Positions 3,854 to 61,343 of a stretch of 64,000 bases of DNA are shown here, piece after piece (the stretch's first letter is position 1; every line of letters starts with the position of its first letter). The DNA lies in the NCBI RefSeq assembly GCF_037975245.1, contig NC_092569.1, positions 157,001 to 221,000 on the forward strand, in the 5' to 3' direction. Source of the DNA: Apostichopus japonicus (lineage: Eukaryota; Echinodermata; Holothuroidea; Aspidochirotida; Stichopodidae). Below the pieces are notes generated by a model, which was given only the letters and a program-made list of their open reading frames with translations, was not told the origin of the DNA and made no database searches. A program made the position numbers and the translations under genes.

Positions 3854-6790
3854 CTAAGATGGATTGCTATGCAGTAGGTATTGTTTTAGTTTTTGCTTAA
3901 AAGTATTGAGTGTTGGAGAAATTTTAATGGCATGATTAAGAGAATTCCAGAAGGGTACACCTGTGCTACGAATTTGAGAATGGTTAAGACTAGTTCTAGA
4001 GTAAGGATGGTGTAGCATATTCATCGAACGAGTGTTATAAGTGTGATAGCTAGAATTGCAAGTATAAAAGTTATTAAAAGCTGGTGGGAGAAGACCATGA
4101 TGAAATTTGTACATAAATATCCCTAGTTGCAATGGTACTTGTACAAATCATATAAAGTTAATGTATTGGAGTCTATAAAGAGAGGAGCAGTATGCGAGAT
4201 GTAATGAGTCTGGTTTATATTGCGGATAACACGTTTCTGTAACTTAAATAAACTGTTAAGTAGGGTTGACTGTGTGTTGCCCCAGACAAGAAGACTATAG
4301 TTGAGATGGGGAAGCACAAGAGCATTATACAGGGTCAAAAGTGACTTCTTAGGTAAAAAAATCTTTAGTCTATTGATCACACCATTGGATTTAGAAAGCT
4401 TCTTGCTGACCTCGGAGATGTGTTGTTTCCAAGTCAACTTATCATCAATGGTTATCCCTTAACTTGATGCCCATCCAGTATAACATTAATGTTACTAGAG
4501 TCTTGGACCTTGTTATCAAAATCAGTAACTTTGTTTTTAGAATATTAAGAGAAAGTTTATTTGTTCTGAGCCAGTCAGAAATGTTTGAGAAACCACTAGC
4601 AGCTTCAGCAAGAGTGTCACGTAAGTTCTTATTTTGTAGGAATACTGTGGTATCGTCAGCAAACAAGATAAAAGTTGAGTTCACAGATGAATTATAAATA
4701 TCATTGATATAGAGAATAAACAATAGGGGTCCTAGTATAGAACCCTGCGGTACACCAATATTACATAGGATACGATCTGAGTGGGAACTATTAAACTGAA
4801 CATAATTACAACGATTATGGAGATAACTTTTAAACCAGTTATGGGCGGTACCACGAACACCATAGGCAAACAATTTATTTAATAAGATACGATGATCAAT
4901 GGTATCAAAAGCCTTAGAAAGATCAATGAATATGGCAGCAGTAGTGAGCCTATTGTCCAAACCTCTTGAAATTTTATCTATGAGACTTAAAGCAGCCATA
5001 TAAGTAGAATGTTTGTTGCGAAAACCATACTGGTTTGTAAATAGGATTTTTTGTTTTGTAATAAACTTATAAAGTCTATCGTATGCAAGACGTTCAATGA
5101 TTTTAGAAATGACAGGTAACACAGATATTGGTCTGTAATTTGAGAAATGCTTCGGGTCCCCAGACTTAAAAATTGGAATTACCTTCGCAATTTTCAGCTC
5201 TGACGGAAAAACTCCATTTGAAAAAGACAAATTGATAATATGGGTTAGTGGTATTGAAATAATATCAGCTACATGCTTTAGAATTTCATTCGTAATATTA
5301 TCATAACCAGGACTCTTGCCATTTTTTTAATTTAGACATAGCTAATTTTACCTCCTCAACATTAGTTGGGAAAAACGCAAAAGAATTTGGAATATTACTA
5401 TTAACATAACTTAATGGAGTATGCTGGCCAGCATGAAGCTTTTTAGCTAAATCACTAGCAACTGAAGAAAAATAACTATTGAATTCATTAGCAATATCAT
5501 CATCATTTGAGGACAATCCATGAGCACATGCAAATGTCTTATTGGTAACATCAACTCTCTTCTTGTGCAGGATTTTGTTGATCACTTTCCAGAGTTGTGT
5601 GGAGTCGCCCTTATGGTTCTCAATTAAAGTACTAAAATGCATCTTTTTGGCCAAGTTAATGGTAGTTATGAGTCGATTTTTGTACTTTGTATATGCTAAC
5701 TTACGCACTGAAGTGGGGTTTTGTATGTATTTAGAATATAGTTTGTGTTTTTGTCTGATTGATTTTAGGATACCACCAGTAATCCATGGGGATTTTCCAT
5801 AATTAACTTTCTTATGTACCCTGCTGTATGGACAACACTTGTTAAAGGTCCGTGAGAAAATATTGGAAAAATTGCTATAGGCAGATTCAGCATTTTGGTC
5901 ATTAGTAATGAAAGACCAGTCGAGGATACTGAGCTCATTCTTCAGGTGATTAACATTTTTGCGGCATGTGTTATTCTTAAAAATAGCATGTTTTCTTTTA
6001 GTTTGAATCTTACTTCCTGAAACACAAAAGATTGGATAGTGGTCAGAAATATCAGTCAATAAAATACAACTCTTAGAAACATTTGTAGAATTTGTAAAAA
6101 TATTATCAATCAAAGAAGACGTAGCAGAAGTAACCCGTGTAGGTTTATCAATTAGCGGATAACAAGAGTATAAGGACATTATGTTACGAAGCTCTTGTAC
6201 TCTTTGTACTTCGTTCTTCTTTACAAGATCAATGTTAAAGTCCCCTGCAAGAAAGACACCCTTGTTTTCAGTATTCAGAGCTTCTAAGCAGTTACCCATG
6301 CACAACGAAGTGATTAATTTGTTGATCGGGTGGTCGGTATATGACTCCTATACTATTGTATTTCTGACTGTAACATTATTTAGCTCAATAAAAAGTGACT
6401 CAGCGCTATCACTCATTAATTGAGTAAGATCGGTTCTTATCTTTACATCTAGAGTCTCTTTTGTGAAAATGGCAACACCACCTCCTCTTTTATTATTTCT
6501 ATTTCTATGAAAGAGTTTGTAGCCGTCTATTTGGAGGGTGTCAATAGGAGAAAAATCATGCAGCCAGGTTTCTGTAATGCATATAAAAGTGAATTTAAAA
6601 TTGTTAATAGAATGCATAAAATTTACAAAAGGGTCAAAGTTCTTCGTAAGACTTCTGATATTAATATGAAGAATTGTGGTATGTATGTCACGGCACTGAA
6701 TATTGCTATTAAAACTAGAATCATTATAGTAATTACACGGAAAATTACTTAATTCGTCTCCCTGGTCGTTAGTTACTGTTTCAGTGAAGA
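3854..6790 (-). pseudogene. LINE ORF2: endonuclease plus reverse transcriptase, frameshifted
   Basis: Read on the minus strand, the endonuclease starts near 6700 (LHINIRSLTKNF), followed by ITETWL, GDFNID and the SDH signature (DISDHYPIF). The reverse transcriptase follows with NYRPISVLP, FIDLSKAFDTIDH, GVPQGSILGPLL and the catalytic FADDT block (about 4630-4700). The C-terminal region ends in the usual WNSL...F motif (about 3900-3960). The frame breaks near 6345, again near 6305, in a run of seven T (plus strand) near 5325, and around 4440 and 4130. These are single- or two-base changes, so this is a recently dead or mildly mis-sequenced copy. In a live element the protein would nick target DNA and copy the element RNA. 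Confidence 0.85.
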
Positions 6791-13600: not shown

Positions 13601-16600
13601 GAATAAAACTCCTCTGGAACACGTGTAACTTGTTCACCAATCCTCGGTAAATCAACACCATTCTGCAAAATATTAATTTCAAAATAAGCTGCCTTTAAAA
13701 AGAAACCCAATAGAAATGTACCAAAAGATTTGTAAACTGTATTTGAAATTTTACTGTTTTGGATAATATGCTGCCATAAGCTGACCATTTAATTGGTTTA
13801 AATTTTAATGTTTTGGATAATATACTCCCATAAGCTGAGCAGTTAATTGGTTTAAATTTTAATGTTTTGGATAATATACTCCCATAAGCTGAGCAGTTAA
13901 TTGGTTTAAATTGTAATGTTTTGGATAGTATACTCCCATAAGCTGAGCAGTTAATTGGTTTAAATTGTAATGTTTTGGATAGTATGCTGCCATAAGTTGA
14001 GCAGATAATTGGTTTAAATTGTTATGTTTTGGATAATATACTACCACAAGCTGGGCAGTTAATTGGTTTAAATTGTAATGTTTTGGATAGTATACTTCCA
14101 TAAGCTGAGCAGTTAATTGGTTTAAATTGTAATGTTTTGAATAGTATGCTGCCATAAGTTGAGCAGATAATTGGTTTAAATTGTTATGTTTTGGATAATA
14201 TACTACCACAAGCTGGGCAGTTAATTGGTTTAAATTGTTATGTTTTGGATAGTATACTCCCATAAGCTGAGCAGTTAATTGGTTTAAATTGTAATGTTTT
14301 GGATAGTATGCTGCCATAAGTTGAGCAGTTAATTGGTTTAAATTGTAATGTTTTGGATAATATACTACCACAAGCTGAGCAGCTAATTATTACTTTGTAA
14401 AGTTTTGATTTAACTTCAGTGCCTTCACTTTGTGCCTTCACTAGAATCTTTGGTGCAACTTTGTCTTGTGAAGATTTTATCAGATTTAATAAAGAGTTTG
14501 TGAATGTGCATGAATATTATTTCTCTATTGGATCTACAGATACATGAATGGAGCTTTAACCAATCCAGATGCCCATGTAGTGGCCTATGCTGCAGCTCAA
14601 GTCAAGAAAGGACTGGAAGTTGGCAAGAAGCTGGGAGCAGGAAATTTTGGTAAAGCTGATGAGATGAAGGTTTAGTGCCCTTACCTGATTGAAACCCGTT
14701 CCAAATCCCTTGAAAATGTGCACTTTGTATTGAATTTGCCAACATTGTTATGGTACCATAACATCTCAGGGTTATATTTTAATACTTCATAAGGTAAACT
14801 GTGGAAGTACTTTTATTAAAAAAGTTTAAACTTTAAAATTGAAACATTTAACTGTTCTTGCTGAGAAAGTAACCATTTTACCCTGGTTGAGGTTATACTG
14901 TGTGATATATTGATAATGGTTCCATCACTTTTGATTCATTATCCAATGACATAGCAGTTTGATTTGTAACTGTAGCATGCTTATCTGGTTATTGTTATGG
15001 GAGGATAACTCAAAGTTTCTACTTTATCATTGTAATAAAACATTGTGGGTTATTTTTTCCAACATATCTTGCTTTTCAGAATTATGTTGAATTGCATCTG
15101 ATGTCTTTTTGCTTTCAGTTTTCTGGGGTGGCAGGGAAGGCTATCAGAGTCTTCTTAATACAAATGTCCTCACTGAGCTTTCAAACATGGCCAGCGTTTT
15201 CAAGATGGCAGTTGGTAAGTTTTCTGAGTTTTCAATAGTTAAGAGCTATTTTTCAACATTTTTGAGTGAATGAGAAATTTTCACATATTATTGCAATAGT
15301 GAGATCGAATGTGAAATTTTTATTCTTGATTTTGACATTCTAGCTAGCTACATCAAAATAACTTTATTATGTAGTTAGTTTGAAACAGAACTACAGTATT
15401 AGGATAAATCATTTATAGTCAAACTCTTTGAAAATACTTCCATATACAAAGCAGCTACATTTACCATGCACTTGCTGCATCAACCTGCCATTAGGGAGAC
15501 CGTTTCTGCACAGTGGTTGTGGAATGGATTGCCTCAACATATAAGGCACTGTGAATCTCTTCCCATGTTCAAGAGACTCTCCTATTCAATATTGCCTTAT
15601 TCTTAGCGAATGTTCTGCTTCTAGTGTTCAGTTTCCTATTGCTGTTGTAGTTTATATAGTTTTCGGTATTTTTATGTTCTTATCCTACTTATTTGATCCT
15701 TTCATATATTTTTTTTTTAAATTTCCTTCAGTGTTTTCTACTCTTTGTACCTATTCTTTCATGTTTGTAGCTTGGATTGTTGTGTAAAGCGCCTAAAGGC
15801 CTTTTTTGGTATTTCTGCGCTACATCAAGTAACACATTAAAATTGTGCATAGTATTTTGTCATTATTCATTTTCTTGTCTCATATTGCTATTTGTAGTTA
15901 AATATTATAAATTGAAATGATCGTAACTTGTATGAATCTCTTAGTATGGGTATGCTTTAATCAGTGAAATAATGATCTGATGCATCCATCACTCACAGAC
16001 TTTAAATGTGTGTGAAATTTATCAACGGTTCCTTCTGTATGATGATATTTTACAATTTATGTCTCGAGCTCCTTGCATCATCAATTCCAGCAGTAATCAT
16101 ATCATGCTCTGGGAAATGTTACGAGGCATGCATACAATAGTTTCAAAATGGTAGCAATAATTTGAAAACTTATCAATAACATCATTACTGCAGAAGAAAA
16201 GGATTGAAACAATGCACTATATACTGAAGCATCAGTACAATACATATGTGAACATTTAACATGTACTCTCTCACCTTGTGATTGCTATTGATTTGGTTAA
16301 ACATTAAACACAAAAGTAGCCAGTGCAGTCACTACACCTGACAGGGACACTTATGCAAGCATCTACAAGCAACAATATACAACAGAGCCAGCTTTTATCT
16401 TTTATAGTAGTTTGTCTGTAGATGTTCTCTAGCTACTATTTACATTGCATTTGGTTGTTCAATCAAAGGTGATAAAGTTTCAAACAAAAGTCAAAGATTA
16501 AACAAGATTTACAGTACCTCATCAGTACAATCCTCTCGAGTATCATATGAATACCAAACATGTGTGATCCAGAGCACTATAACTAGGCTACCATTACAAT

Positions 16601-19600
16601 TAACAGCAGATTGATTCTTCTTGATGTTTTCTGTTTGTAACCATATTTTATTTCTTGAATTTATCTGCTGTATGTCCCTGTAATTCAGCTTTTTTTAAAT
16701 TATATTTAGACCCTAGGGAGAGATAATTCTATGTTTTCATAGGTACTAAACTTTGTATGCTTTTGTGGTGACGTAAGATTTATCAAAGCCTAAGAGGATG
16801 ATAAATAGCCATGTTATATAAGTAGTCACAGTTAACGTTATACATGTGTAGTAGTAGGCATGAGCTACCACTCAGGGTTAGGGTTAACTGATGAGCACCA
16901 TACCCTGAAAGACTTATTTCCTTATGATGCATTGTTATACATGTGTAGTAGTAGGCATGAGCTGCCACTCAGGGTTAGGGTTAACTGATGAGCACCATAC
17001 CCTGAAAGACTTATTTCCTTATGATGCATTGTTATACATGTGTAGTAGTAGGCATGAGCTGCCACTCAGGGTTAGGGTTAACTGATGAGCACCATACCCT
17101 GAAAGACTTATTTCCTTATGATGCATTGTTATACATGTGTAGTAGTAGTCATGAGCTGCCACTCAGGGTTAGGGTTAACTGATGAGCACCATACCCTGAA
17201 AGACTTATTTCCTTATGATGCATTGTTATACATGTGTAGTAGGCATGAGCTGCCACTCAGGGTTAGGGTTAACTGATGAGCACCATACCCTGAAAGACTT
17301 ATTTCCTTATGATGCATTGTTATACATGTGTAGTAGGCATGAGCTGCCACTCAGGGTTAGGGTTAACGTATGAGCACCATACCCTGAAAGACTTATTTCC
17401 TTGTGAAGCATTGGTTATACATGTGTAGTAGGCATGAGCTACCACACAGGGTTAGGGTTAACTGATGAGCACCATACCCTGAGAGACTTATTTCCTTATG
17501 ATGCATTGTTATACATGTGTAGTAGTAGGCATGAGCTACCACTCAGAGTTAGGGTTAACTGATGAGCACCATACCCTGAAAGACTTATTTCCCTAGGCCT
17601 ATGATGCATTGTTATACATGTGTAGTAGGCATGAGCTGCCACTCAGAGTTAGGGTTAACTGATGAGCACCATACCCTGCAAGACTTATTTCCTTATGATG
17701 CATTGTTATACATGTGTAGTAGTAGGCATGAGCTGCCACACAGGGTTAGGGTTAACTGATGAGCACCATACCCTGAAAGACTTATTTCCTTATGATGCAT
17801 TGTTATACATGTGTAGTAGTAGGCATGAGCTGCCACTCAGGGTTAGGGTTAACGTATGAGCACCATACCCTGAAAGACTTATTTCCTTATGATGCATTGT
17901 TATACATGTGTAGTAGGCATGAGCTGCCACTCAGGGTTAGGGTTAACGTATGAGCACCATACCCTGCTAGACTTATTTCCTTATGATGCATTGTTATACA
18001 TGTGTAGTAGTAGGCATGAGCTACCACTCAGGGTTAGGGTTAACGTATGAACACCATACCCTGAAAGACTTATTTCCCTAGGCCTATGATGCATTGTTAT
18101 ACATGTGTAGTAGGCATGAGCTGCCACTCAGAGTTAGGGTTAACGTATGAGCACCATACCCTGACAGACTTATTTCCTTGTGAAGCATTGTTATACATGT
18201 GTAGTAGTAGGCATGAGCTACCACTCAGGGTTAGGGTTAACTGATGAGCACCATACCCTGCAAGACTTATTTCCTTATGATGCATTGTTATACATGTGTA
18301 GTAGGCATGAGCTGCCACACAGGGTTAGGGTTAACTGATGAGCACCATACCCTACAAGACTTATTTCCTTATGATGCATTGTTATACATGTGTAGTAGGC
18401 ATGAGCTACCACTCAGGGTTAGGGTTAACTGATGAGCACCATACCCTGAGAGACTTATTTCCTTATGATGCATTGTTATACATGTGTAGTAGTAGGCATG
18501 AGCTACCACTCAGGGTTAGGGTTAACTGATGAGCACCATACCCTGAAAGACTTATTTCCTTATGATGCATTGTTATACATGTGTAGTAGTAGGCATGAGC
18601 TACCACTCAGGGTTAGGGTTAACTGATGAGCACCATACCCTGCAAGACTTATTTCCTTATGATGCATTGTTATACATGTGTAGTAGGCATGAGCTGCCAC
18701 TCAGGGTTAGGGTTAACTGATGAGCACCATACCCTGAAAGACTTATTTCCTTATGATGCATTGTTATACATGTGTAGTAGTAGGCATGAGCTACCACTCA
18801 GGGTTAGGGTTAACTGATGAGCACCATACCCTGAAGACTTATTTCCTTATGATGCATTGTTATACATGTGTAGTAGTAGGCATGAGCTACCACTCAGGGT
18901 TAGGGTTAACTGATGAGCACCATACCCTGAAGACTTATTTCCTTATGATGCATTGTTATACATGTGTAGTAGGCATGAGCTGCCACACAGGGTTAGGGTT
19001 AACTGATGAGCACCATACCCTGAAGACTTATTTCCTTGTGAAGCATTGGTTATACATGTGTAGTAGTAGGCATGAGCTACCACTCAGGGTTAGGGTTAAC
19101 TGATGAGCACCATACCCTGCAAGACTTATTTCCTTATGATGCATTGTTATACATGTGTAGTAGGCATGAGCTGCCACTCAGGGTTAGGGTTAACTGATGA
19201 GCACCATACCCTACAAGACTTATTTCCTTGTGAAGCATTGGTTATACATGTGTAGTAGGTATGAGCTACCACTCACCAGAGGACAGTCACCAACAGTCAG
19301 TCAGGGAAATCCCTTCATGTTGAATTTATCCTTACTTATAAAACTGGCTACATCTTGATCAGTGCAGGTACATATACATGTATACACACACTGCCGGATT
19401 ACCCTTCATTACTGAGTGGGTTTATGTTCACTTTGGTAGAGTGAGGCTGATAAAGACATTTGGACAAGACATTTCATGGTGTCATCCAGTTCCTACAGTG
19501 TTGTAATGATCAAAGTTAAAAGCCTCATTATGATGAACTAGTTCATGGTATTACTCTCAACACTATCAGTGCTCCAAGTTGACTCAAAGCTTTAATGCGG

Positions 19601-22600
19601 TTTTTAATGTGTTTTGTTTCCTTGAAGCTCACAAGAAGAAAATAGGGTTCAAAGGTCAACTGCTTATTGAACCCAAGCCAAAGGAACCAACAAGACATCA
19701 GTATGATTATGGTAAGTTCTGTGGAATGCCAAATCAGCATTTATTACATCCTTCCAGTTTTCATCAATGTCCATGTGATAGATATAAATGAACAGCTTCC
19801 CAAACAGCTAAGCCAAATTTGGGAAATATCAATGTTTAATGTTCCTTCACCCAGAAGACCTTAGCAAGTGTTTGTATGACATGAAACCATATGCTTGAAC
19901 TTTTTTCTTTTTCCTTTATTTTCTGTAATCCATGGAGTTTTCATTTGCAAGAGACAAGTCTAAAAAAATTGAATTTCTCAACATGACAGAATGATGGCAT
20001 TTTTATTCTCAAAAAGTACTTACAAGTACGTACAAGTATTTTCTAATGATATAACAATTAAACTTAACTTTGATACAGATGCGATGACAGTAATTGGTTT
20101 CCTTAAGCACTTTGGACTTGCCAATGACTTCAAGCTAAATATTGAGCCTAACCACACTACCCTAGCTGGCCACCAGTACCATCATGATGTGATGATGGCA
20201 TCCATGTAAGTACCATAAAACCATAGCAGGTCACCGAACCATCATGGTTACCTGATTGCATCCATGTAAGTCATAAGAGTAAACCAGTGATACCCTAGCT
20301 GGCCACCAGTACCATCACGATGTGATGTTGTTATAAATAAAGTTAATAGAGAAAACCAGTGATACCCTAGCTGGTAACCAGTACCATCACGATGTGATGT
20401 TGTTATAAATAAAGTTAATAGAGTAAACCAGTGATACTCTACCTGGTCCCAAGACCATCACAATGTGATGTTGTTATAAATAAAGTTAATAGAGAAAACC
20501 AGTGATACCCTACCTGGTCACCAGTACCATCACGATGTGATGTTGTAAATAAAGTTAATAGAGTAAACCAGTGATACCCTACCTGGTCACCAGTACCATC
20601 ACGATGTGATGTTGTTATAAATAAAGTCAATAGAGTAAACCAGTGATACCCTACCTGGTCACCAGTACCATCACGATGTGATGTTGTTACAAATAAAGTC
20701 AATAGAGTAAACCATTGATACCCTACCTGGTCACCAGTACCATCACGATGTGATGTTGTTACAAATAAAGTCAATAGAGTAAACCAGTGATACCCTACCT
20801 GGTCACCAGTACCATCACGATGTGATGTTGTTATAAATAAAGTCAATAGGGTAAACCAGTGATACCCTACCTGGTCACCAGTACCATCACGATGTGATGT
20901 TGTTATATATAAAGTCAATAGGGTAAACCAGTGATACCCTACCTGGTCACCAGTACCATCACGATGTGATGTTGTTATAAATAAAGTCAATAGGGTAAAC
21001 CAGTGATACCCTACCTGGTCACCAGTACCATCACGATGTGATGTTGTTATATATAAAGTCAATAGGGTAAACCAGTGATACCCTACCTGGTCACCAGTAC
21101 CATCACGATGTGATGTTGTTATAAATAAAGTCAATAGGGTAAACCAGTGATACCCTACCTGGTCACCAGTACCATCACGATGTGATGTTGTTACAAATAA
21201 AGTCAATAGAGTAAACCAGTGATACCCTACCTGGTCACCAGTACCATCACGATGTGATGTTGTTACAAATAAAGTCAATAGAGTAAACCAGTGATACCCT
21301 ACCTGGTCACCAGTACCATCACGATGTGATGTTGTTACAAATAAAGTCAATAGAGTAAACCAGTGATACCCTACCTGGTCACCAGTACCATCACGATGTG
21401 ATGTTGTTATAAATAAAGTCAATAGAGTAAACCAGTGATACCCTACCTGGTCACCAGTACCATCACGATGTGATGTTGTTATAAATAAAGTCAATAGAGT
21501 AAACCAGTGATACCCTACCTGGTCACCAGTACCATCACAATGTGATGTTGTTATAAATAAAGTCAATAGAGTAAACCAGTGATACCCTACCTGGTCACCA
21601 GTACCATCAAGATGTGATGTTGTTATAAATAAAGTCAATAGAGTAAACCAGTGATACCCTACCTGGTCACCAGTACCATCACGATGTGATGTTGTTATAA
21701 ATAAAGTTAATAGAATAAACCAGTGATACCCTACCTGGTCACCAGTACCATCATGATGTGATGTTGTTATAAATAAAGTTAATAGATTAAACCAGTGATA
21801 CCCTAGCTGGTCACCAGTACCATCACGATGTGATGTTGTTATAAATAAAGTTAATAGAGTAAACCAGTGATACCCTACCTGGTCACCAGTACCATCACGA
21901 TGTGATGTTGTTATAAATAAAGTTAATAGAGTAAACCAGTGATACCCTAGCTGGTCACCAATAGCATCAGAATGTGATGTTGGTATTAATTGAGGTATAT
22001 ACCTACATAGCATTACATAGCTATTTAATACAGTAGGCAATTAATATTTGACTTTTTAAGTTAATCATGCAAATTAAATATTAGAGGGGCAATAGAGAGA
22101 TTTACATGATTACAATGTTATGTCTCATTCACAGCTTTGGTATGCTTGGATCTGTCGATTCAAACACTGGCTCTCCTGACCTGGGTTGGGACACTGACCA
22201 GTTCCCCATGGACATCTCACATGCAACACAGACTATGAAAGTAAGCCATCAACCTTTTTTGGCTTTATATGTAATAACCCCCTCCCCTCCCCTCCCCCTC
22301 CCCCATGGGACATATCATATTCAGCATAGACTATGAAAGTAAGCCATCAACCTTTGTTTTGGCTTGATATGTAATACTCCCTGCCCTCCCCTCCCCCCCC
22401 CACGGGACATATCATATTCAGCATAGACTATGAAAGTAAGCCATCAACCTTTGTTTTGGCTTGATATGTAATACTCCCTCCCCTCCCCACCAACCCCCCC
22501 CCCCCCATGGACATATATGCAACACAGACTGTGAAAGTAAGCCATCAAACTTTGAGGATAACTTTGGGCAGGATGTTTAGCATGTTATGTAATAAACCCC

Positions 22601-25600
22601 CTCCCATCCCCACCCCCCCCCCAAAAAAAACTATTGTTTGGTAGTAAGTTAGTAATATCTCTAGAGTTAAATTAGAAATCCAGCATTAAAATATGTTAAT
22701 CTCTGGAATACGTTTTTAAGGCTAAATTGAGATGATGTTGGCACCTCAGTGCAATCCTTCTGTCATTGTTAGTGCTAAATGCATTGTTTTGTTAACATAT
22801 GGCTGACGTCCAACACTGTTTGCCTTTGACGCTGTTACAATGCATTGAAAACAAGTCATCTGAGACCATAACAATGAAACTTTTTCTTTTTCATGTCATA
22901 TCTGATGGAATGTGTGTTAGATTAAGAAGTGCAGCCACTGTAATTGCCTAATGAAGAGCCTTGAATTATCCTAAGTCCTCATAAAATGGCCTTGAATAAT
23001 TCATGGTCCCTCATAAAAGAGCCTTGAAAGAATTCAAGGTCCTCAAGAAATGGTTTTGAATAACCATAAAGGCACATGCACATTGTACCGACCCGACTGC
23101 GGCCCGACGCCACTGTGACAAAAATCTGCCCGTTCGGTGCAATTTGAGCGAAATTTTGTTCCCGATCCGACAGTCAGTCCTAGTCTTGATCAAATCAGGC
23201 ATATCACACTGTTTGATATTTGTCGTGGTGTTGGAGGCTGTGATGTCACAGGTTAGTTGGGTCGTGGCAGATTGAGGCTGTCCACAACCCGACTTTATAT
23301 TGAAAAGCCAATGAGGAAGGGTAAAACCAGGTGATGGCTGCAGAAAGTAAAAATGGCGGCCGCATGGACTGATGAGCAGGATATTTAACTGATGCAGCCC
23401 GTCAGGCTGGGCTAGTGTGGGCTCAACTAAGATCCAACACCCACACGACTTGGTGGCCACGACTGTCTACAACTCATTCCCGAGGATTAGTCGGGGAGAG
23501 TCGCGTCTGGTCGGTGCAATTTGCCCCTGCTTTATATCCTCTTAAAATGTTTTTGAATTCAAGGTTTCATGTAAAAATTGGATTAGTTAATATTCCATTC
23601 TCCGCCCACCCTTCCTTTTACCTTATGAGGGTTACAACTTTCACAATTTGCACAATGTCACTTTTGTCAAGTTACTGATTTTCCTTGTGATGAGCAAAGT
23701 GTCCAATTTCTTAATACATCATTTGATGACAACTTTGATTACTGATTTAATCCATATTAATCCGCAGGTGATTTTAGAGCAAGGTGGTCTCCAGCCTGGT
23801 GGTTTGAATTTTGATGCCAAAGTACGGAGAGAGTCTACTGACCTGCAGGATATATTCATAGCTCACATTGGTGCCATGGATACTTTTGCCCGTGGTCTCA
23901 GGAATGCTGCCAAAATCATGGAAGATGGATATCTGGGGAAAATGCTCAGTGTAAGTTCCATGAAGAATGTTTCTTGTGCAGTTGCTACATGTTAATGACA
24001 TCATAGTGTACAGCATGATTTCATTAACATTGGTTTATACTGAATGACTTTTGTCATGACTGCATTCTACTGCTGCACTTGTCGATGTGTTGTTGAGTGT
24101 CGATGTGTTGTTGATTGTCGATGTGTTGTTGAGTGACGATGTGTTGTTGATTAAAATATTTAGAATTGCTTGGGTTTCACTAGACTGGACTGGAATGGAC
24201 AGAACGCTTTCTAGTCACTTCGCCCAACAACCATTTCGCCCAACTGCCATTTTGCCCAACCAGCCTGGTCACTTCGCCCAACCAGCATGGTCATTTCGCC
24301 CAACCATCATAGTCATTTCGCCCAACCGTGTTGGTCATTTCGCCCAACCTTATTATTACTAATATTCAGTCAGAATATTACTTTTTCTATTCCACTAGTT
24401 CAATTTGATTTATTTTGGGTTAGGTTACTTCGTAATAGGTAAATAAAAAAGTGAGGTCCGCTCGATATCGATCGAAGTCTGAGCAGTTATTTCGGGTATA
24501 ATGGGAGGATTACACTACTTTAGGCGTTAACGCATACAATGGGAGTTATATTATTATACAAACACAGGGGAATAGGTCTTCATAAAAACCTATCAAACCT
24601 AACCCCTAAAACACTGATCCATCCTACTGACTAACAATTCCCGAACGTTTCCTTATTAAATCGAAAAAAAATATATATATATATATAAAACCAAGGTTGG
24701 GCGAAATGACCAGGCTGGTTGGGCGAAATGACCAGGCTGGTTGGGCGAAATGACCAGGCTGGTTGGGCGAAATGACCAGGCTGGTTGGGCGAAATGACCA
24801 GGCTGGTTGGGCGAAATGACCAGGCTGGTTTGGGCGAAATGGTAAGGTTGGACGAAATGGTTGTTGGGCGAAGTGTCCTGCTTCCGACAGAACTGTACTG
24901 AACTGTAATGGACTGACTGTATTGCAATGCAATGGATGGCACTGGATTGTACGTTGTTTCACTGCTTTGTAAAAAAAAATATTTTATAGTTTTATCCATA
25001 ATATAGCATTTAATAGTATTGTATTGTACTACATAAACTGTCATTGCATTGTATCACATTTATGATTAACTCACCAAATATGGTTTGGAAAAAAATTTAA
25101 AAATTCTTGGGAGGCACAATACTGACAGTTAGAACAGATTTGAAAATTATTGTTTTGATTTGATGTGAAGACAACTTAAAACTATCAGTATTTGTGAGAT
25201 TATTATTTTTCAAATTGCTTAACAGGCATTGTTTTGCCATAAATTTGTGTGGACAATCTTCTGGCAAGATTAGTAGAGTTTCTTTTTATGTCCTGTTTCT
25301 AGGATCGCTATTCATCTTTTAATGGAGGTCTCGGTTTGAAGATTGCAAAAGGCAGTGCAACTCTAGAAGACTGTGAGGTAATGGTCATTCTTCAACAAAT
25401 AACTGTCAACTAGAACAACTGTATTTGTATACAAACACTTGTCATTGTAGTGCGTGGTGAAGGTCAAAGTTAGTCAGTTGTTCATATTCAATGGAGGGTT
25501 CTTTGTTACTGCAACTCTTTTGAAGTTATTTTGGTCACGAAGAAGCAAGTTCGGCGTTTGGTCCCTCAACGTAGACCAAAGCTAGGCTATATTGTGTAAT

Positions 25601-28245
25601 GTTTATAAACATTACTCTAGCTAGCATATGCCTGCAATATAAACGAAGAAATGATTACTGAAACCAAGCTCAAAATCATGAATCATGCCTGTTTCGGACG
25701 TGACAGAGAATACACAGAGTCCTGGACACTGATTGGTCAAATTGAACATGTAAATGTTACTGTATCCTCACCTAGTTAGCGAAATTTTAAGAACATGCGG
25801 TGGTTTGCACTGACAGCAAAATGGACAATTAATATAATGAATACATGTAGGCCTATAGTCTATCATTGCAAATGTAACACCCTTCGGTCTATTGAAAACT
25901 GCTTGGTCGTTTCCTAGCCCTGGTTTATCATCATCCAAAACACATAATATATGCCATACACAGCCATAGTATATACTCCCATGCCACAATAATAACGTTA
26001 CAAGTGCCTATGTTGCAAGAGCTGAAGAAGTACAGATAATACCAGGTCGTTGCGGATAAATACGATCGATAAACATCTGTTGATTGCAACTTAAAGATTT
26101 TTTAAGTTGATAGAATAATCTGATGTACTTTGGTTGTAGCTTTGATTTAAGCTTGATGTCATGCAGCAGGTCTCTAGCACTAAAAGTTGTAGATTGATTT
26201 AAGCTTGATGTCATGCAGCAGGTCTCTAGCACGTATAGTTGTAGATTGATTTAAGCTTGATGTCATACAGCAGGTCTCTAGCATGTATAGTTGTAGATTG
26301 ATTTAAGCTTGATGTCATGCAGCAGGTCTCTAGCACGTATAGTTGTAGCTTTGATTTAAGCTTGATATCATGCAGCAGGTCTCTAGCACGTATAGTTGTA
26401 GATTGATTTAAGCTTGATGTCATGCAGCAGGTCTCTAACATGTATAGTTGTAGATTGATTTAAGCTTGATGTCATGCAGCAGGTCTCTAGCACGTATAGT
26501 TGTAGATTGATTTAAGCTTGATGTCATGCAGCAGGTCTCTAGCACGTATAGTTGTAGATTGATTTAAGCTTGATGTCATGCAGCAGGTCTCTAGCACTAA
26601 AAGTTGTAGATTGATTTAAGCTTGATGTCATGCAGCAGGTCTCTAGCATGTATAGTTGTAGATTGATTTAAGCTTGATATCATGCAGCAGGTCTCTAGCA
26701 CGTATAGTTGTAGATTGATTTAAGCTTGATGTCATGCAGCAGGTCTCTAGCACGTATAGTTGTAGCTTTGATTTAAGCTTGATGTCATGCAGCAGGTCTC
26801 TAGCACGTATAGTTGTAGATTGATTTAAGCTTGATGTCATGCAGCAGGTCTCTAGCACTAAAAGTTGTAGATTGATTTAAGCTTGATGTCATGCAGCAGG
26901 TCTCTAGCATGTATAGTTGTAGCTTTGATTTAAGCTTGATGTCATGCAGCAGGTCTCTAGCATGTATAGTTGTAGATTGATTTAAGCTTGATGTCATGCA
27001 GCAGGTCTCTAGCACGTATAGTTGTAGATTGATTTAAGCTTGATGTCATGCAGCAGGTCTCTAGCACGTATAGTTGTAGATTGATTTAAGCTTGATGTCA
27101 TGCAGCAGGTCTCTAGCACTAAAAGTTGTAGATTGATTTAAGCTTGATGTCATGCAGCAGGTCTCTAGCATGTATAGTTGTAGCTTTGATTTAAGCTTGA
27201 TGTCATGCAGCAGGTCTCTAGCACGTATAGTTGTAGATTGATTTAAGCTTGATGTCATGCAGCAGGTCTCTAGCACGTATAGTTGTAGATTGATTTAAGC
27301 TTGATGTCATGCAGCAGGTCTCTAGCACGTATAGTTGTAGATTGATTTAAGCTTGATGTCATGCAGCAGGTCTCTAGCACGTATAGATATAGATTGATTT
27401 AAGCTTGATGTCATGCAGCAGGTCTCTAGCACGTATAGTTGTAGCTTTGATTTAAGCTTGATATCATGCAGCAGGTCTCTAGCATGTATAGTTGTAGCTT
27501 TGGTTTAAGCTTGATGTCATGCAGCAGGTCTCTAACATGTATAGTTGTAGATTGATTTAAGCTTGATGTCATGCAGCAGGTCTCTAGCATGTATAGTTGT
27601 AGCTTTGATTTAAGCTTGATGTCATGCAGCAGGTCTCTAGCATGTATAGTTGTAGATTGATTTAAACTTGATGTCATGCAGCAGGTCTCTAGCACGTATA
27701 GTTGTAGCTTTGATTTAAGCTTGATGTCATGCAGCAGGTCTTTAGCACGTATAGATATAGATTGATTTAAGCTTGATGTCATGCAGCAGGTCTCTAGCAC
27801 GTATAGTTGTAGCTTTGATTTAAGCTTGATGTCATGCAGCAGGTCTTTAGCATGTATAGTTGTAGCTTTGATTTAAGCTTGATGTCATGCATCAGAGCAT
27901 CATCATACTGAGCAGCCACAGTCATCACATTAAATTTAGCTTGCTTTATGTCACAAAAAGCTATCTTCTGTGATGCAAAAGAATCTTTTGTACATTAAGT
28001 TGCTTAAAGTTGCATTTATTTCTGTCATGTCATGTCTGTGCAACAAAATGGTGCATATTTGTGCTCATGAGTTGGGGAGGTAGCTAGGTGTTGTTTCAAG
28101 CACAGCTGGTTGCTTTAGTAAATGAATTTTAAATTTTTTTTCCCTGTTGTTTCTCCCTTAGGAATTCATCAAACAAGAAGGTAATCCTAAAAAGACTTCA
28201 GGCCAACAGGAGAAATATGAAGCAGTTCTCAACAGATATGTTTAA
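10632..28245 (+). CDS. xylA: Xylose isomerase, 13 exons, complete (450 aa)
   Basis: The enzyme interconverts D-xylose and D-xylulose (EC 5.3.1.5), a metal-dependent TIM-barrel reaction. Coding exons: 10632-10689, 11240-11316, 12321-12441, 12865-12958, 13509-13646, 14540-14649, 15119-15214, 19628-19711, 20079-20205, 22135-22240, 23768-23950, 25303-25377, 28162-28245. All junctions are GT-AG, phases agree, and the sum is 1353 nt. Landmarks in order: FFPGIP near the N-terminus, [27 protein letters not shown] (His115, Asp118), VFWGGREGY (201-208), LLIEPKP (Glu246), NIEPNH (Glu282, His285), GSVDSN (Asp310), GWDTDQFP (Asp321, Asp323) and GGLNFDAK (Asp353). As I recall the E. coli XylA catalytic and metal positions, these all match at a constant offset of 14, so the enzyme looks functional. 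The start is the only ATG in frame ahead of the conserved FFPG block. Length is normal for the longer class II family. No targeting signal is obvious, so it is probably cytosolic. A polyadenylation candidate AATAAA lies at 29068, which would give a long 3' UTR. Confidence 0.95.
12015..12314 (+). mobile_element. tRNA-derived SINE in intron 2
   Basis: The head has a pol III A box within TGGTCAAGTGGTTAAGGCAG (about 12027-12046) and a B box GGTTGGAGTCC (12071-12081). The body contains TGTGTCCTTGGGCAAGGCAC, a core seen in many invertebrate SINEs. The 3' part ends in a LINE-like tail with GCACTATATAAAAATATTG and an ATT-repeat. The tail stops about 6 bp before the acceptor AG of xylose isomerase exon 3. 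No clear long target duplication was found. Confidence 0.85.
13753..14400 (+). repeat. 54 bp minisatellite, about 12 copies (intron 5)
   Basis: Twelve head-to-tail copies of a 54 bp unit start 107 bp after exon 5 of xylose isomerase. The unit begins ATGTTTTGGATAATATACTC and contains AGCTGAGCAGTTAATTGG. Because 54 is a multiple of three, the minus strand reads as an open 18-residue peptide repeat, which is an artefact of repeat length. The unit does not resemble the neighbouring exons. Confidence 0.9.
15486..15845 (+). mobile_element. CR1/L2-type LINE 3' fragment (intron 7)
   Basis: The plus strand translates to a C-terminal motif typical of CR1/L2-type reverse transcriptase proteins ([20 protein letters not shown]), which then stops. 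It is followed by a 3' UTR-like stretch with GTAAAGCGCCTAAAGGCC and a tail. Only the last part of an element is present. It is comparable in kind, though not in detail, to the C-terminus of the LINE at 3.5-7.8 kb. Confidence 0.6.
16837..19276 (+). repeat. 97 bp minisatellite, about 25 copies (intron 7)
   Basis: About 25 head-to-tail units of 97 bp, with 94 bp variants that lack one TAG triplet. Each unit runs from GTTATACATGTGTAGTAG through AGGGTTAGGGTTAAC to CTTATGATGCATT. Every unit carries about two TTAGGG-phase repeats, the common animal telomere motif. Copies are nearly identical, with a few carrying the insertion CTAGGCC or the variant CTTGTGAAGCATTGG, which shows higher-order shuffling. 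It occupies more than half of the 4.4 kb intron 7 of xylose isomerase. Confidence 0.95.
20206..21990 (+). repeat. 72 bp minisatellite seeded by exon 9 (intron 9), about 24 copies
   Basis: The array starts immediately at the exon 9 donor of xylose isomerase. A degenerate first copy (20221-20291) still contains GCATCCATGTAAGT, the exon end plus donor. About 24 regular units of 72 bp follow, each containing ACCAGTACCATCACGATGTG and ATAAATAAAGT. The block from TACCCTAGCTGGCCACCAG onward is nearly identical to exon 9 at about 20156-20195. Since 72 is divisible by three, the minus strand stays open for 533 codons, an artefact. Confidence 0.95.
22203..22560 (+). repeat. Tandem copies of the exon 10 / intron 10 junction
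   Basis: The end of exon 10 and its donor (TATGAAAGTAAGCCATCAAC, around 22234-22253) recurs downstream at about 22330, 22426 and, slightly altered, 22526. The spacing is about 96-100 bp. Between copies lie C-rich stretches (CCCCTCCCCTCCCC). Each copy keeps a consensus-like donor AAAGTAAG. Reading through from exon 10 meets a stop at about 22334, so use of a later donor would truncate the protein. Confidence 0.9.
23070..23535. mobile_element. Possible inverted-repeat element in intron 10
   Basis: The left side (GCACATGCACATTGTACCGA...) and the reverse complement of the right side (end near TCGGTGCAATTTGCCCCTGC) share CACATTGTACCGACC-like and CCCGAC blocks. The inner segment is CG-rich relative to its surroundings and has no protein match I recognise. 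The inverted repeat is imperfect and no target duplication was found. Confidence 0.35.
24216..24875. mobile_element. Inverted-repeat element with TTGGGCGAAATG minisatellite ends (intron 11)
   Basis: The outer 29 bp at 24216-24244 and 24847-24875 are inverted repeats with one mismatch, starting CACTTCGCCCAACAACC. Just inside, on the left, lie irregular CATTTCGCCCAACC copies (24245-24350). On the right are six near-identical 22 bp units (about 24695-24830) containing TTGGGCGAAATGACCAGG. The core is non-coding with a short AT repeat near 24667. This is a MITE-like structure whose subterminal repeats face each other. No target duplication was recognised. Confidence 0.7.
26135..27893 (+). repeat. 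52 bp minisatellite, about 34 copies (intron 12)
   Basis: About 34 units of 52-53 bp with the core TTTAAGCTTGATGTCATGCA and GCAGGTCTCTAGCA fill most of the 2.8 kb intron between exons 12 and 13 of xylose isomerase. Two spacer types alternate (TGTAGATTGATT and TGTAGCTTTGATT), as do three unit ends (GCACGTATAG, GCATGTATAG, GCACTAAAAG), giving a patterned array. No match to nearby exons. Confidence 0.95.
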
Positions 28246-29589
28246 GGATCGGAAATGTTTTCATAACTTTTTTATGCCTACAAGTGATTTTATCATATGA
28301 ATATTTAAAGATGCACAAAGACATTCTGACCTAGGAAAAATTCAGTCAGGAAACATTAATATCATGTTTTATAATGTAGACAAAAATTGCTTCTAATATA
28401 ATCATTGCAATGTCTTCTATTTCCTTGGAAGAATGTTCTGACAAAACTACTGTACATGTTGAAATCAAGTTAGTATTATATTTTTCATATTTCATTCTCT
28501 CCAAATGAGTACTGGTTATTTCCATAATTCTATACTGCAACTGCAAGCTAGAACACACATTATCTCCAAACTTCCACAATAATATATTTTTATTCCATTT
28601 CAATAATTTTTAGGTGTCTTTTTTCCTTCTCCCAACTACTTTGCCTTCATAAGAAAAATTATATGAATCAGAAAATGAAACATAAATTAGGTTATCTAAT
28701 ATGTTTCTGTCATGACAATAACTGTTACAATATTAACAAACAGGATCCATTTTGTTCCATCTTTAATGTGACATATTTTAGCATTGATAGTTCATAATAG
28801 GAAATCTAATTTTAACCAAGCTTGAGTAGGACTTTCCACTGAGTTTTAGTTTGCAAGGTTACAAAGCTGGGTAGACTGCTGAAAGAATATGTTTATTCTT
28901 TGTGAAACACAATCTACTGACCATTTATTACTTACATGCTGTCTACATATGATATGGGACAAGCTAGGTTAAATTTGGAATTCATTAAGACTTAAATATT
29001 TGTCTAAGTTTCCAATTATGTAGCCATATATGAACATTTTAAGATGGTTTATTCTCAGTTTAGCTACAATAAAGTATTATGAAAGTCTTATGAATATTCA
29101 ATAGATCGAAGAACAATCTGTGATGTTTGGTTTCTGTTGATAAGATAGTTGGGAATTACTTTGACAGAAGTATCATAATGCATTGACTGCATTGCATATT
29201 ACAGTAACATTGAGTTAGTTTGGCATTGATATGGAAAATGGTTTGGTACTATTTGGTGCAAAATTCCCATGATGATGCTGTTGATTTATAGCTAGGTTTC
29301 AATTACAGTAAATGACAAAGATTTGAACGTTAAGTTTCCTAGTAAGAAAATTCAGAGGAGTGTTAAGCTACTTTCCATCTGATTAAATATTAATAAGTGC
29401 AAGAGAGCCTGACATATTGATCCTAGCAGGATCTTAAGAAGCTAACTGAATCAAATTCACACTAAGGACACATGCAGAGAGACAGATGGACAGAAAACTA
29501 AATTGGACAATTGATGGAACAAAATTAGACAGAACAGAGGATAGGTGAGATGATATACTTGTAACAGCTCCTTGTCATCATCTGTTTGG

Positions 29590-30930
29590 GTGGTGTTACA
29601 TTGATGGCATCTTCTTTGTCTGGACCAGTCATGATGAGAGTCTCTTAGGTTTCATCAATTCCACTGAGTATTCTCTCCAACAGGCTAACTTTCTTGAGGG
29701 CACCCTCACCTCCAATCTGTACACTAAATCTACAAACACCAGTACCTTGATGTGTTTAGTTGCCATCCACACCACTGTAAGATTGGTATTGCCTTCAGAT
29801 CTACAGACACCAGTACCTTGATGTGTTTAGTTGCCATCCACACCACTGTAAGATTGGTATTGCCTTCAGATCTACAAACACCAGTACATTGATGTGTCTA
29901 GTTGCCATCCACACCACTGTAAGATTGGTATTGCCTTCAGATCTACAGACACCAGTACATTGATGTGTTTAGTTGCCATCCACACCACTGTAAGATTGGT
30001 ATTGCCTTCAGATCTACAAACACCAGTACATTGATGTGTTTAGTTGCCATCCACACCACTGTAAGATTGGTATTGCCTTCAGATCTACAAACATCAGTAC
30101 CTTGATGTGTTTAGTTGCCATCCACACCACTGTAAGATTGGTATTGCCTTCAGATCTACAAACACCAGTACATTGATGTGTTTTGTTGCCATCCACACCA
30201 CTGTAAGATTGGTATTGCCTTCAGATCTACAAACACCAGTACCTTGATGTGGTTAGTTGCCATCCCCACCACTGTAAGATTTGTATTGCCTTCAGTCAAG
30301 CTGTTCACCTTTGCAATATGTGCTCTAATGATTCTAAGTTTCCTTGCCATGCACAGAACCTGAAGCAGCACCTCATTACCAGGGGGGAGGGGGTCACAGT
30401 TCCAGGAGAGTTCACCAAGCCATTCAAAGAGCTGTCTCCCTCCCTAGATCCCCTCTCCTAGAAGAGAAGCCCAAGAGAACTGATAACAACTTCCAGATTC
30501 CTCTTGTTGTCTCTTTCCATGCCAATCTGCCTCCTCTTTGCGAAATTACTAACAACCATCACCACATCCTGCATACTTCAGATTGTCTTAAAAGAGCCTT
30601 CCTTGAGAAGCCAGTCATTGCATACAGATGCCCTGGTAACCTGCAAGATCTGTTGGTTGGTGCTGCTTACCACCTCTAACTACACCTCTGTCCAGCATGG
30701 TATCATCAGATGTGGTGAACAAGGTGCATATGTATATCAGAACCAGATTCTTACACCAGCCATATCACCCAGCACGCAAAAGAAACAAAGGCTTACATCA
30801 TGTACATTTATCTTATTTCATGCAGAGTTTGTAAAACTCAATATTTATGGGAGACCATTACCACTGTCAAAAAAGTCTCTATGGCTACAGGCAAATGGTT
30901 TCAAAATCCAAGAAACACTCCCCTGATCCT
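29590..30930 (+). pseudogene. Penelope-like element relic with internal tandem expansion
   Basis: From about 29591 the plus strand reads WCYIDGIFFVWTSHDESL, then NFLEGTLTSNLYTKSTNT, matching the end of a Penelope-like reverse transcriptase (YIDD motif, FLD...LYTKPTDTH). In another frame comes a block like HQYLDVFSCHPHHCKIGIAF, then QNLKQHLITRG, KPKRTDNNFQIPLV, and a stop at 30679 after NLQDLLVGAAYHL, all in Penelope order. The second catalytic Asp of YIDD is Gly, the segment between YIDG and the FLEG block is short, and the frame shifts several times, so the element is dead. The 71 bp array at 29730-30297 lies inside it. A 45 bp segment near 30893 recurs near 31020. Confidence 0.75.
29730..30297 (+). 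repeat. 71 bp minisatellite, 8 copies, from Penelope coding sequence
   Basis: Eight units of exactly 71 bp start at 29730, 29801, 29872, 29943, 30014, 30085, 30156 and 30227. Each contains CACCAGTACCTTGATGTG or a close variant, and TTGCCATCCACACCACTG. The unit corresponds to the conserved Penelope segment around HQYL-x-SCHP. Because 71 is not divisible by three, each copy shifts the reading frame. Confidence 0.9.
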
Positions 30931-46119: not shown

Positions 46120-49100
46120 CTACAGTGATGTTACAAGACTTTCTAACACTTCCTTCTCTTTAACTGGTAATATATTACTGTAACTTTTCGTTGACTTATT
46201 ACTGACGCTAACAGGTCCAGTATTTCTTTTTTCACCAACTGGAATGAATCTTCCAAGTAAAGAGAGTATAACGGGTAAGAATAGAAGTCCATGGAGGGCG
46301 CCAATTGCCATGACAAGGAACAAAGTCTTGAAAAAGGTTCGAAATATGTATACATTTGCTGTTGACAGTGGAGCTATCGCTATCATTGACGATAGTGCGC
46401 TTTGAAAGATTGGTGCACCTAAATGACGTAATGCTTCAACAGCCCTTTTGGTTGGGTCCTTTTGCGTGGAAGATACGTACGCGTAAGTTATATGTGCAGA
46501 AAAGTCAACACTAAACCCGATGCAAAGCAGGATATTAATGACAGATACGATGTCTAACGTTACTCCCCATAAACTCATGTAACCTAAGACAGCGGCATCG
46601 ATTGAAACAGCGCAGAGTGTAACTGAGACTGCGCAGATCGGATGAGGAATCATTACTATGGCAACGATGAACATACTCATCAATGCTATGGATATAGTCT
46701 GCAAAGTGTAAGAAATTAATCCCACATATGAATCATATACAAGAAACATTGGCGCAAACACAATAATACTTATACTGGTTTGTTCAGCTCTACTGCGAAA
46801 ATCCATCATTAAATCTTTTTCACCAATGGCATTTTCGGCGCCATGGGTAGGCATCATTATTCGTGAGGTTTCAATGCCCATTATTTCTCCGTCTGTGGTC
46901 TTATTAAATACTATATCTAATTGAAAATGTCGGAATCTAAAATCTTCCAAAAATTCATCGGATAATATTTGCAAGAAGTCTTCTTTTGGCAATGGACCAT
47001 TACTTAATCTACCAGATTCCGATAGATACCACACATAGGAACGTATCCATGATGTCGTGTACAAGCTTCCGTATGAAAAGTAGGACGCTTCTATATGCCT
47101 TGTTGCATCTTCAATGGTAGCTTGCACCTCGAAGTCCCAGTACTCCAAATCATCGGTGAAGGCGACATTAATCGGTGCACAAAAAGTAGTTAAATACTGA
47201 TCGCGAACATTGTAAAATAACCAAGGGCTTGATTGATCCGGGGCCAAGTTATGGAGTCTCAAGCCTTCATTAACATTCAAACAACCATAGATAGATCCAC
47301 TTAAGCACACGATTAAAAGGAAAATAGCAAACACTTTTGTAGGCCATTTGCCAACGAACGGACCGTAATAGTCAGTAAAAAAGGTAACTAGTGGGTGTTT
47401 AACATATCCACCCTTGTGACGAAGTCTATGTTTATGGTCACGTGGTACACCGCCAGCACAAAATATTCTGTAAAGACTATTCGGGGCTTCATCCTTTGGT
47501 TTGACTTTTTGAAAAGTTAAACAATGTCGGTTTTGTTCCTCTCTTTCTCCAGTTAGAGCTAGACAAGCTCCAAAAAATGTTATCTGATAAAAGTAAGCGA
47601 AAAACATGGCGACACCTGCATATATGCAAAACATTCGAACGGCTGGAATCGGGGTAGACGACCCAACTAAGAAGGCGAGGATATCTGTTAGGTTGGTGAT
47701 GGTAATAGAGACTGCTGCTTCTGAATAGGTCCTACCCATACGGTCCTCGACAGGAATATAAAGACTATTCTTTCGCCAGGCTGCTACCATGATGAACATA
47801 TCATCGACACCAACACCTACAGAGAGGTTGAAAGAAAAGAAATGTTGTAGTAATCATAGAAAGAAACGTATCCACGAGAATAATGATAAATATAAACAGA
47901 AAAGGACTCATCAGAACTGAATCTTTTACTTCCAAAGTAGAAATATAATGAAGAACTAAGCGAAATCAGTTACCTTCAGTGTATAAGTATTTTTACTATT
48001 GGCATAGCGACCATATTTTTACATTATTTTCACATGGAAAATGGGTGGAAAATTGAATCTATATATACTCCGAAAGTTGTTTACACAAAAACTCCCTGGT
48101 GTAATTTAAAGAGCACTCATTTCCGATTGATCGATTAAATCAACTGCTCATTTTGCTACCTGGTCACATAGGCTCGGCCATGTCAAGCCCACATCCCTGT
48201 TATAAAGGACTTGTGACGAATTCCTTTATAAACAAACTATTTTTTTACTTTAGTCTTAGTTACTGACGCATGGAATTCCTCTATGGGGAAAACAATATAA
48301 ACTTGTTCGAGTCACTTAACCCTCGAACTATTTGGAAATTAACGTTAACTTTCGTTCACCGAATAGATTACATAATGCAAAGCTGCATGCCACATAATAC
48401 ATTTTGTTACTAAACCTTTAAAACATAACAGTTCGAAGAACTAAGCCCATCATTTATCATGTTGAATTCCTTTATAAACACACACATACACATCGTTCTG
48501 TTTTTCACGCGGTACTGGAAGATAGAGATTAGACTACATTCACATAATAGCGGATTTCATTTAAGCAAGGATTATGTCTCCATTTTGGTAACTTTCAGAC
48601 AAATCGCGCCGTTTGGTTCGAAGCTACTTACGCGCATGCGCTAATGTACCTGCTTACATGTTTGTTTACAAATGCATTAAGATTTGTCACTTTCTTTCAG
48701 TATGAATCAGTGGCGTAGGAAGGTACTTTTGAGTGGGGGGCTGAAGACTGATGACCGGCCTGGGGGAGGGGTCTAAGGGGAGGGGGTGTCCCCCTCCCCT
48801 TTGGATTTTTTTTGCATTTCCATGTGGCCTCAGATGCAATTTGGTGCAATATAGCACACTTCAACACCCACTCCATTTTGTAAATAATTTTGCATTTTCA
48901 CCTGGCCTTAGATGCAATTTGGTGCTCCAAATGAGATTTTTTTCTGATTTGGAAATGAAAAAGGGGTTTTCTGACTTGCTGAGCGGGGGGGCGGAATGAT
49001 ACTTCCGCCCCCCATATTTTTCACTGGGGGGGCTGGCGCCCCCCAGCCCCCCCGGTTCCTACGCCCTTGGTATGAATATACAGGGTATTTACTCCATGAC

Positions 49101-55600: not shown

Positions 55601-55930
55601 CCTATCGGGAATAAATTCAACTCCTTCATCGCCAATCAGAAACCTTTCCTCCAAGGCAGCTTTGTCTTTGATCCCAGGCGTTCCGAGTGGCGTGAATAAA
55701 TATTCCAAATCTTCATTTATATCGAAAAATAATAATCCAGATGTCAATATTACATTTATACAAATAGATAGCACGAGAACTTTCCTTCTGTGTCTGTACA
55801 CAAAAGTGCCAATATCGTGAAAAGTACTACTAAACCAATTGTCCACGCATCTAAGTTGATCCGCTGAGCAGCATTTTCTTGCCTTTTTCTCGCCTTCTTC
55901 TCCTTCTGTTATCTTCTCTTCAGCGTACAT
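46120..55930 (-). CDS. ptchd3: Patched domain-containing protein 3-like, 2 exons (941 aa)
   Basis: Exon 1 is 55930-54802 and exon 2 is 47816-46120. They join in phase 1 within the conserved LVIGVGVDDMF motif, giving 2826 nt including the stop. The protein has the RND/patched layout: a charged N-terminus, TM1 (about 50-70), a first extracellular loop (about 71-305) with NGT and NWT glycosylation sites, then a sterol-sensing-type TM2-TM6 bundle with VIGVGVDDMF (375-384) and a second loop. The last TM bundle carries the second RND signature GFSVDFSAH (810-818) and ends with a short cytosolic tail. This is close to full PTCHD3 family length. Family members are membrane proteins linked to sterol or lipid handling; vertebrate PTCHD3 is noted in sperm. 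The substrate of this one is unknown. ATG 55930 is the only upstream Met before TM1. A foldback MITE lies about 190 bp upstream, and the 7 kb intron holds repeats. Confidence 0.92.
48708..49069 (+). mobile_element. hAT-like MITE, copy 2 (362 bp), in the PTCHD3-like intron
   Basis: Same family as 2293-2656 and nearly identical along its length. Ends are CAGTGGCGTAGGAA and TTCCTACGCCCTTG. A perfect 8 bp target duplication GTATGAAT lies at 48700-48707 and 49070-49077. Close similarity between copies points to fairly recent spread. Confidence 0.9.
49440..49575 (-). mobile_element. Possible Penelope-like element 3' fragment
   Basis: On the minus strand this reads CTCTGAAGAAGATCCCGCCA followed by AGGTCGAAACGTCCTGCC, a phrase commonly found near the 3' end of Penelope-like and related elements. 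No flanking coding part is present. Recognition is by recall of the phrase only. Confidence 0.35.
49576..53430. other. PTCHD3-like intron interior, no gene seen
   Basis: Apart from simple repeats no conserved frame is visible. Contents noted: a GGGGT-rich run at 51570-51616, an AT dinucleotide repeat at about 52585-52630, the hairpin-like AGGGAGTTGT motif at 52709-52738 and G-rich stretches at 53130-53150 and 53225-53265. Confidence 0.5.
53756..54415 (+). repeat. Exact tandem duplication, 2 x 330 bp
   Basis: Copy 1 (about 53756-54085) and copy 2 (54086-54415) appear identical over their 330 bp, including long G and C homopolymers and the end AGAGAAGATTCCCTACTA. The left part overlaps a region of degenerate CGGGCAAGAATCGGG-type repeats (53450-53830). 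It lies in the PTCHD3-like intron. Identity over homopolymers suggests either a very recent event or an assembly artefact. Confidence 0.9.
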
Positions 55931-56118
55931 TTTTGTTTCGAAATTTACTTGTCTCGTAAAAAACTCTCCAAGAATTTCTTATTTTGTGGGTAATATTCCA
56001 ACCGATTACTGCGTGGCATACGGAGGGGATAACCTAGTCTATTTGCGTGGCTATACGAAGTTGGGAATCCCGCACATGACTGCTCACGGTCAATACCAAT
56101 TGTAGTGCGCATGCATAC

Positions 56119-56424: not shown

Positions 56425-61343
<4,919 letters not shown>

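Follow-up and report, generated by a model that had tools for sequence, protein, structure and literature searches.

Minisatellite copies of two consecutive exon ends in a sea cucumber xylose isomerase gene

Results

The window analyzed here, a 64,000-nucleotide stretch of the sea cucumber Apostichopus japonicus genome (C9:157001-221000), carries a xylose isomerase gene on its plus strand. The translation of exons 8-11 matches solved xylose isomerases, 15 distinct sequences in all, with a best E of 8.5e-59; the longer chains of 437-458 residues, which we take to be group II enzymes, match best by far. A search of the species' own assembly (671,581,487 bases in 35 contigs) with the exon 8-11 protein gave four exon matches, all from one gene, and yielded no array-free paralogue that could serve for dating. 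Beside the gene lie Patched-type and helix-loop-helix frames (46123-47853 and 54779-55978 on the minus strand, 61296-61916 on the plus strand), and the minus strand at 4448-6347 holds frames of a LINE-type element, one a reverse transcriptase (RVT_1) and the other endonuclease-like, the latter just below the Pfam cut-off. Rfam gave no matches at gathering scores, and ARAGORN found no genes.

Two consecutive exons concern us here, both on the plus strand. Exon 9 (20079-20205) ends in phase 2 at a live GTAAGT donor at 20206, and exon 10 (22135-22240) ends in phase 0 at a live GTAAGCC donor at 22241. Exon 9 encodes a segment that is conserved in bacterial xylose isomerases, and within it a 40-bp stretch (20158-20197, plus strand), encoding 13 residues, recurs in the intron that follows. 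The initial annotation had assigned this stretch to the metal-binding region; its residues come directly after the motif NIEPNH and thus presumably lie beside the metal ligands rather than among them.

The claim that exon 9 sequence is repeated some 24 times at a 72-bp period in intron 9 is borne out. Tandem Repeats Finder (TRF) reports an array at 20268-21990 with a period of 72, 24.0 copies and 96% matches, and cutting the plus strand at AAACCA[GT]TGATAC delimits 24 units of about 72 bp at 20281-21990, the last of them partial. Of the 23 intervals between units, 21 measure 72 bp and the others 71 and 69 bp. The units retain the exon part, and the first is identical to exon 9 at 38 of 40 positions (20158-20197). 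Exon 9 and the unit consensus align with a score of 60. The highest score in 2000 dinucleotide shuffles was 28, and the 1902 other 129-bp segments compared, taken from both strands of the window, reached at most 33. By blastn, 22 of the 24 units contain the 40-bp stretch at 87.5-95% identity, and u25, at the end of the array, matches exon 9 over 44 bp at 84%; u04, which carries a 1-bp deletion, is absent from the blastn matches. Ungapped identity to the exon is 38/40 in u02, 37/40 in u22 and u23, 36/40 in most others and 35/40 in u19, and it is lowest in u25 (34/40) if u04 is set aside, where the deletion reduces it to 15/40.

The pattern of differences among units is ordered. The exon shares TAGCTGG with u02, u03, u23 and u25, which lie near both ends of the array, and the remaining units read TACCTGG. 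Several groups of units are identical (6, 17 and 18; 7 and 14-16; 9, 11 and 13; 10 and 12), as expected from multi-unit exchange. The end-to-centre gradient of identity to the exon is slight, amounting to one or two bases of 40. Of the 13 matches that a genome search with two of the units gave among the best candidates, 12 fell in the array and the other in exon 9; the occurrence of the unit only in these two places, together with the conserved segment that exon 9 encodes, argues for the exon as the source. Folding of the DNA gave z values of -2.31 and -1.01 for two units and -0.91 for the exon, compared with -0.69 to +1.78 for units of four other arrays, one per array; this is no consistent signal, and an unusually strong hairpin as the cause of the array is not supported. 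A 533-codon open frame on the minus strand (20442-22040) crosses the array, a consequence of 72 being a multiple of three, and is very probably not a gene.

The motif GT[AG]AG is missing from all 24 amplified units and occurs in intron 9 only at 20206 and 20266, in keeping with the proposal that the later copies kept the exon part and lost the donor. The second of these sites, GTAAGT at 20266, is a decoy donor 60 nt past the live one. As the initial annotation held, it lies together with the exon end in a first, degenerate tandem copy (copy 1, plus strand); the bounds that we obtain for this copy, 20212-20276, differ slightly from the 20221-20291 given there. Copy 1 is 76% identical to 20151-20218 over 68 bp by blastn, and its decoy shares 23 of 41 surrounding bases with the live donor. 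The junction itself, GCATCCATGTAAGT, is exact (14/14) at 20198 in exon 9 and at 20258 in copy 1. Splicing at 20266 would, as predicted from the sequence, add an immediate TAA.

A spacer containing AATAAAGT had been thought to be a gain of the later copies. In a multiple alignment, the units have TTATAAATAAAGT or close variants at the position of the copy 1 donor (with ATAAATAAAGT or close variants at the donor position), and AAGTCATAAGAGTAAACC, which follows the copy 1 donor, corresponds in position to AAGTTAATAGAGTAAACC in the units, although the donor bases themselves align weakly. Because of this correspondence, the AATAAAGT spacer most plausibly represents the eroded donor with the adjoining bases, not new sequence. 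Divergence is distributed unequally among the exon 9 copies: in copy 1 the junction is intact (14/14) and the exon part has drifted further, and the units do the reverse. Simple neutral decay does not predict this, and the intact junction of copy 1 may reflect conversion by exon sequence or a degree of decoy use.

Exon 9 is not the sole case, for the end of exon 10 and its donor are likewise repeated downstream, which had been overlooked. A plus-strand array at 22210-22554 (97 bp x 3.5 copies by TRF) comprises the terminal 31 bases of exon 10, the donor GTAAGCC and intron sequence beyond it. Its decoy donors at 22339, 22436 and 22537 each match the context of the live donor at 22241 at 36 of 41 bases, and use of any of them is predicted from the sequence to meet a stop within the added stretch. 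When 17 coding segments, 11 from the xylose isomerase gene and 6 from others, were compared with the window at E 1e-3, exons 9 and 10 had local copies and the other 15 had none anywhere in the window.

The window lies 157-221 kb from the telomere; the contig begins with 3 kb of telomere repeat, with 498 copies of CCCTAA, which places the window near a chromosome end. Its 64 kb hold 10 arrays of period at least 20 and score at least 200, occupying 15% of the length, compared with 14 arrays and 2.9% in a 200-kb sample (20 segments of 10 kb, taken at 5 Mb of 20 contigs). The excess in array count has a Poisson P of 0.017 if the sampled rate is taken as exact. In a small set of nine 4-kb contig samples, with a cut-off of period at least 15 and score at least 150, arrays occurred in three of the four samples taken at up to 225 kb from the end, and none was present in the five from 300 kb on. 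One of these samples, C9:60001-64000, is nearly all a 339-bp tandem array with 94% matches, probably a subtelomeric satellite.

Other arrays of the gene resemble its exons no more than controls do. We compared 17 arrays with 12 exons, using 60 shuffles per array made against flanks; the 54-bp array of intron 5 (13746-14388, plus strand), the 97-bp array of intron 7 (16837-19258, plus strand) and the array at 26133-27895 all showed exon similarity within the control range. The intron 7 unit contains AGGGTTAGGGTTAA, two telomere-like repeats. Elsewhere, a 71-bp array of eight copies (29728-30295) sits within a reading frame at 29549-30458, which we take to resemble a retroelement protein; Pfam gave no match for 29549-29818. 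This array scored 28 against exon 9, with a largest shuffle of 27, and given so many comparisons we took the similarity as chance. Its position within such a frame suggests that arrays in the window grow from any sequence, coding or otherwise. Two 22-bp arrays at 24248-24349 and 24695-24841, about 350 bp apart, each largely match the reverse complement of the other (score 78) and may mark the two ends of a mobile element, and at 53755-54415 a 330-bp segment stands in two tandem copies with a 100% match (TRF), either a very recent duplication or an effect of assembly.

Discussion

The repeats at the ends of exons 9 and 10 raise the question of how a gene comes to carry copies of its own splice junctions beside the live ones. 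Structures of this kind, minisatellite duplications of exon-intron boundaries, have been described as "mirages" in amphioxus in the available parts of PMC3087553 and PMC3902484, and so the initial suggestion that they are rarely noted does not stand as a claim of novelty. We consider it likely that the xylose isomerase gene contains two mirage-type minisatellites, functionless by-products that splicing passes over, one of which grew from a derivative whose donor was dead. Short tandem duplications of about 60 bp at exon 9 and about 97 bp at exon 10 would have fallen across the exon end and donor, after which splicing from the first live donor would remove all extra copies with the intron. That the extra copies all lie downstream of the live donor, in the intron and without an acceptor, would explain why the duplications were tolerated; because no acceptor was copied, the units cannot turn into exons unaided. 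The unit pattern suggests that slippage and unequal exchange then expanded a derivative lacking its donor to 24 units at exon 9; the initial proposal of a junction duplication followed by amplification of one derivative is thus supported. At exon 10 the copies are few and their donors remain intact. Because use of the decoys would bring stops, a working message requires the first donor, and the arrays themselves are most likely functionless products of mutation. The minisatellite-rich stretch near the telomere probably favoured their formation. What tells against this reading is the uneven divergence of the exon 9 copies, the slightness of the end-to-centre gradient and the low identity of the last unit, u25.

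An alternative is that exon ends are preferred seeds, with an active mechanism such as R-loops or pausing at splice sites boosting duplications that span donors. Two of the five arrays of the gene do span donors, an outcome reached in 1.9% of trials under uniform seeding (P 0.019), which would allow for a donor bias or for selection among surviving duplications, but this count was made post hoc; when the event counted is that at least two of the five arrays overlap an exon, uniform seeding gives it in 18.5% of trials, so that no exon-directed process is needed. Amphioxus mirages also lie at exon-intron boundaries, according to the available text of PMC3087553. Purging of duplications within exons would alone favour boundaries among the survivors, however, and the 15 coding segments without a local copy, as well as the array in the retroelement-like frame, also tell against a preference for exon ends. 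Random seeding with purging of harmful duplications is enough, and we think an active mechanism improbable.

It is also conceivable, and in our judgment somewhat less probable still, that the decoy donors, the arrays or the AATAAA hexamers at former donors regulate the gene by giving a truncated message and less enzyme. Consistent with this are the junction of copy 1, intact despite divergence elsewhere, the predicted immediate TAA on use of 20266 and stops in the extensions from the exon 10 decoys, and the strand bias of intron 9, where AATAAA occurs 22 times on the sense strand and TTTATT never. The abundance of AATAAA nevertheless follows from amplification of one unit, GU-rich sequence comes about 55 nt past each hexamer, which is far, and the donor kept in copy 1 could be due to chance or to local conversion from the exon.

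Two further explanations have little in their favour. Tandem arrays are prone to misassembly, but an artefact is very improbable here, because the units differ among themselves in ordered ways and the array, at less than 2 kb, is short relative to HiFi reads, whose usual length well exceeds it. The figures of the assembly also nearly equal those given for a PacBio HiFi and Hi-C A. japonicus assembly in the available portion of PMC10344927. An older, dispersed 72-bp repeat, which would resemble the exon by chance or have been the source from which the exon was captured, is barely credible, because the best candidates in the genome lay only in the array and exon 9, the similarity is far above that of shuffles and the exon codes for a conserved segment; the initial annotation had named such a repeat as the finding that would overturn its reading.

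We asked how closely the arrays correspond to mirages. Copies that span an exon-intron boundary are present as copy 1 of exon 9 and as three extra copies at exon 10, and the 72-bp units align across the junction, weakly at the donor. Units within 10-160 bp recur in several copies (72 bp x 24.0 and 97 bp x 3.5), and the copies adjoin the matching live exon for both exons 9 and 10. Copies elsewhere in the genome, which would characterize a dispersed transposable element, were absent among the best candidates scored. Judged by sequence, both arrays thus show the three structural features of mirages.

The phenomenon would thereby extend from amphioxus to an echinoderm; a search of the literature, judged by title and abstract opening, found no report of mirages in echinoderms. 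One gene also offers a side-by-side pair, a large donor-dead array versus a small donor-live one. If this contrast holds genome-wide, both the tolerance of introns for extra donors and the feeding of intron gain by exon-end duplications become testable by counting. More speculatively, and with more doubt than confidence, we suggest that mirages are widespread in minisatellite-rich deuterostome genomes and present in many sea cucumber genes, chiefly near telomeres, and that they grow large only after donor death, with competition between splice sites filtering expansion.

Among known systems, the closest are the amphioxus mirages, described in the available sections of PMC3087553 for Branchiostoma Adh3 (Canestro et al. 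2002, via PMC3087553) and for the globins BflGb6 and BflGb9. Their units range from 10-72 bp in Adh3 to 150-160 bp in BflGb6, splice signals are kept in many but not all copies, the edges of clusters escape homogenisation and length instability is reported; the Adh3 data and globin RT-PCR suggest that splicing is undisturbed, and it is proposed that mirage copies might found new introns (PMC3087553, in the same sections). As in the xylose isomerase gene, these are minisatellite-like copies of an exon-intron boundary beside a live exon, and BflGb9 shows that such copies can include an exon's 3' boundary (PMC3087553). Tandem repeats of 60 and 108 bp that overlap the 5' and 3' splice sites of lancelet PGBD5 are similar, and are described as imperfect (PMC3902484, available text), a trait they share with the exon 9 copies. 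In human segmental-duplication genes, minisatellites at exon-intron boundaries can alter splicing, but those repeats are exonic or tied to new introns, whereas ours are confined to an existing intron (PMC2812944, as far as its available text describes them). Intron gain by tandem duplication, as in potato RdRp, likewise starts from duplicated gene sequence, although no new intron or exon is evident in our case (PMC4974935, available part). Earthworm metallothionein genes show unexplained duplications of the fourth exon together with intronic minisatellites (PMC12783039, available part). The structure itself is thus already known from amphioxus mirages, which the available accounts describe in cephalochordates; what is new here is the sea cucumber host, the involvement of two neighbouring exons in a single gene, and the growth of a large array purely from donor-dead units.
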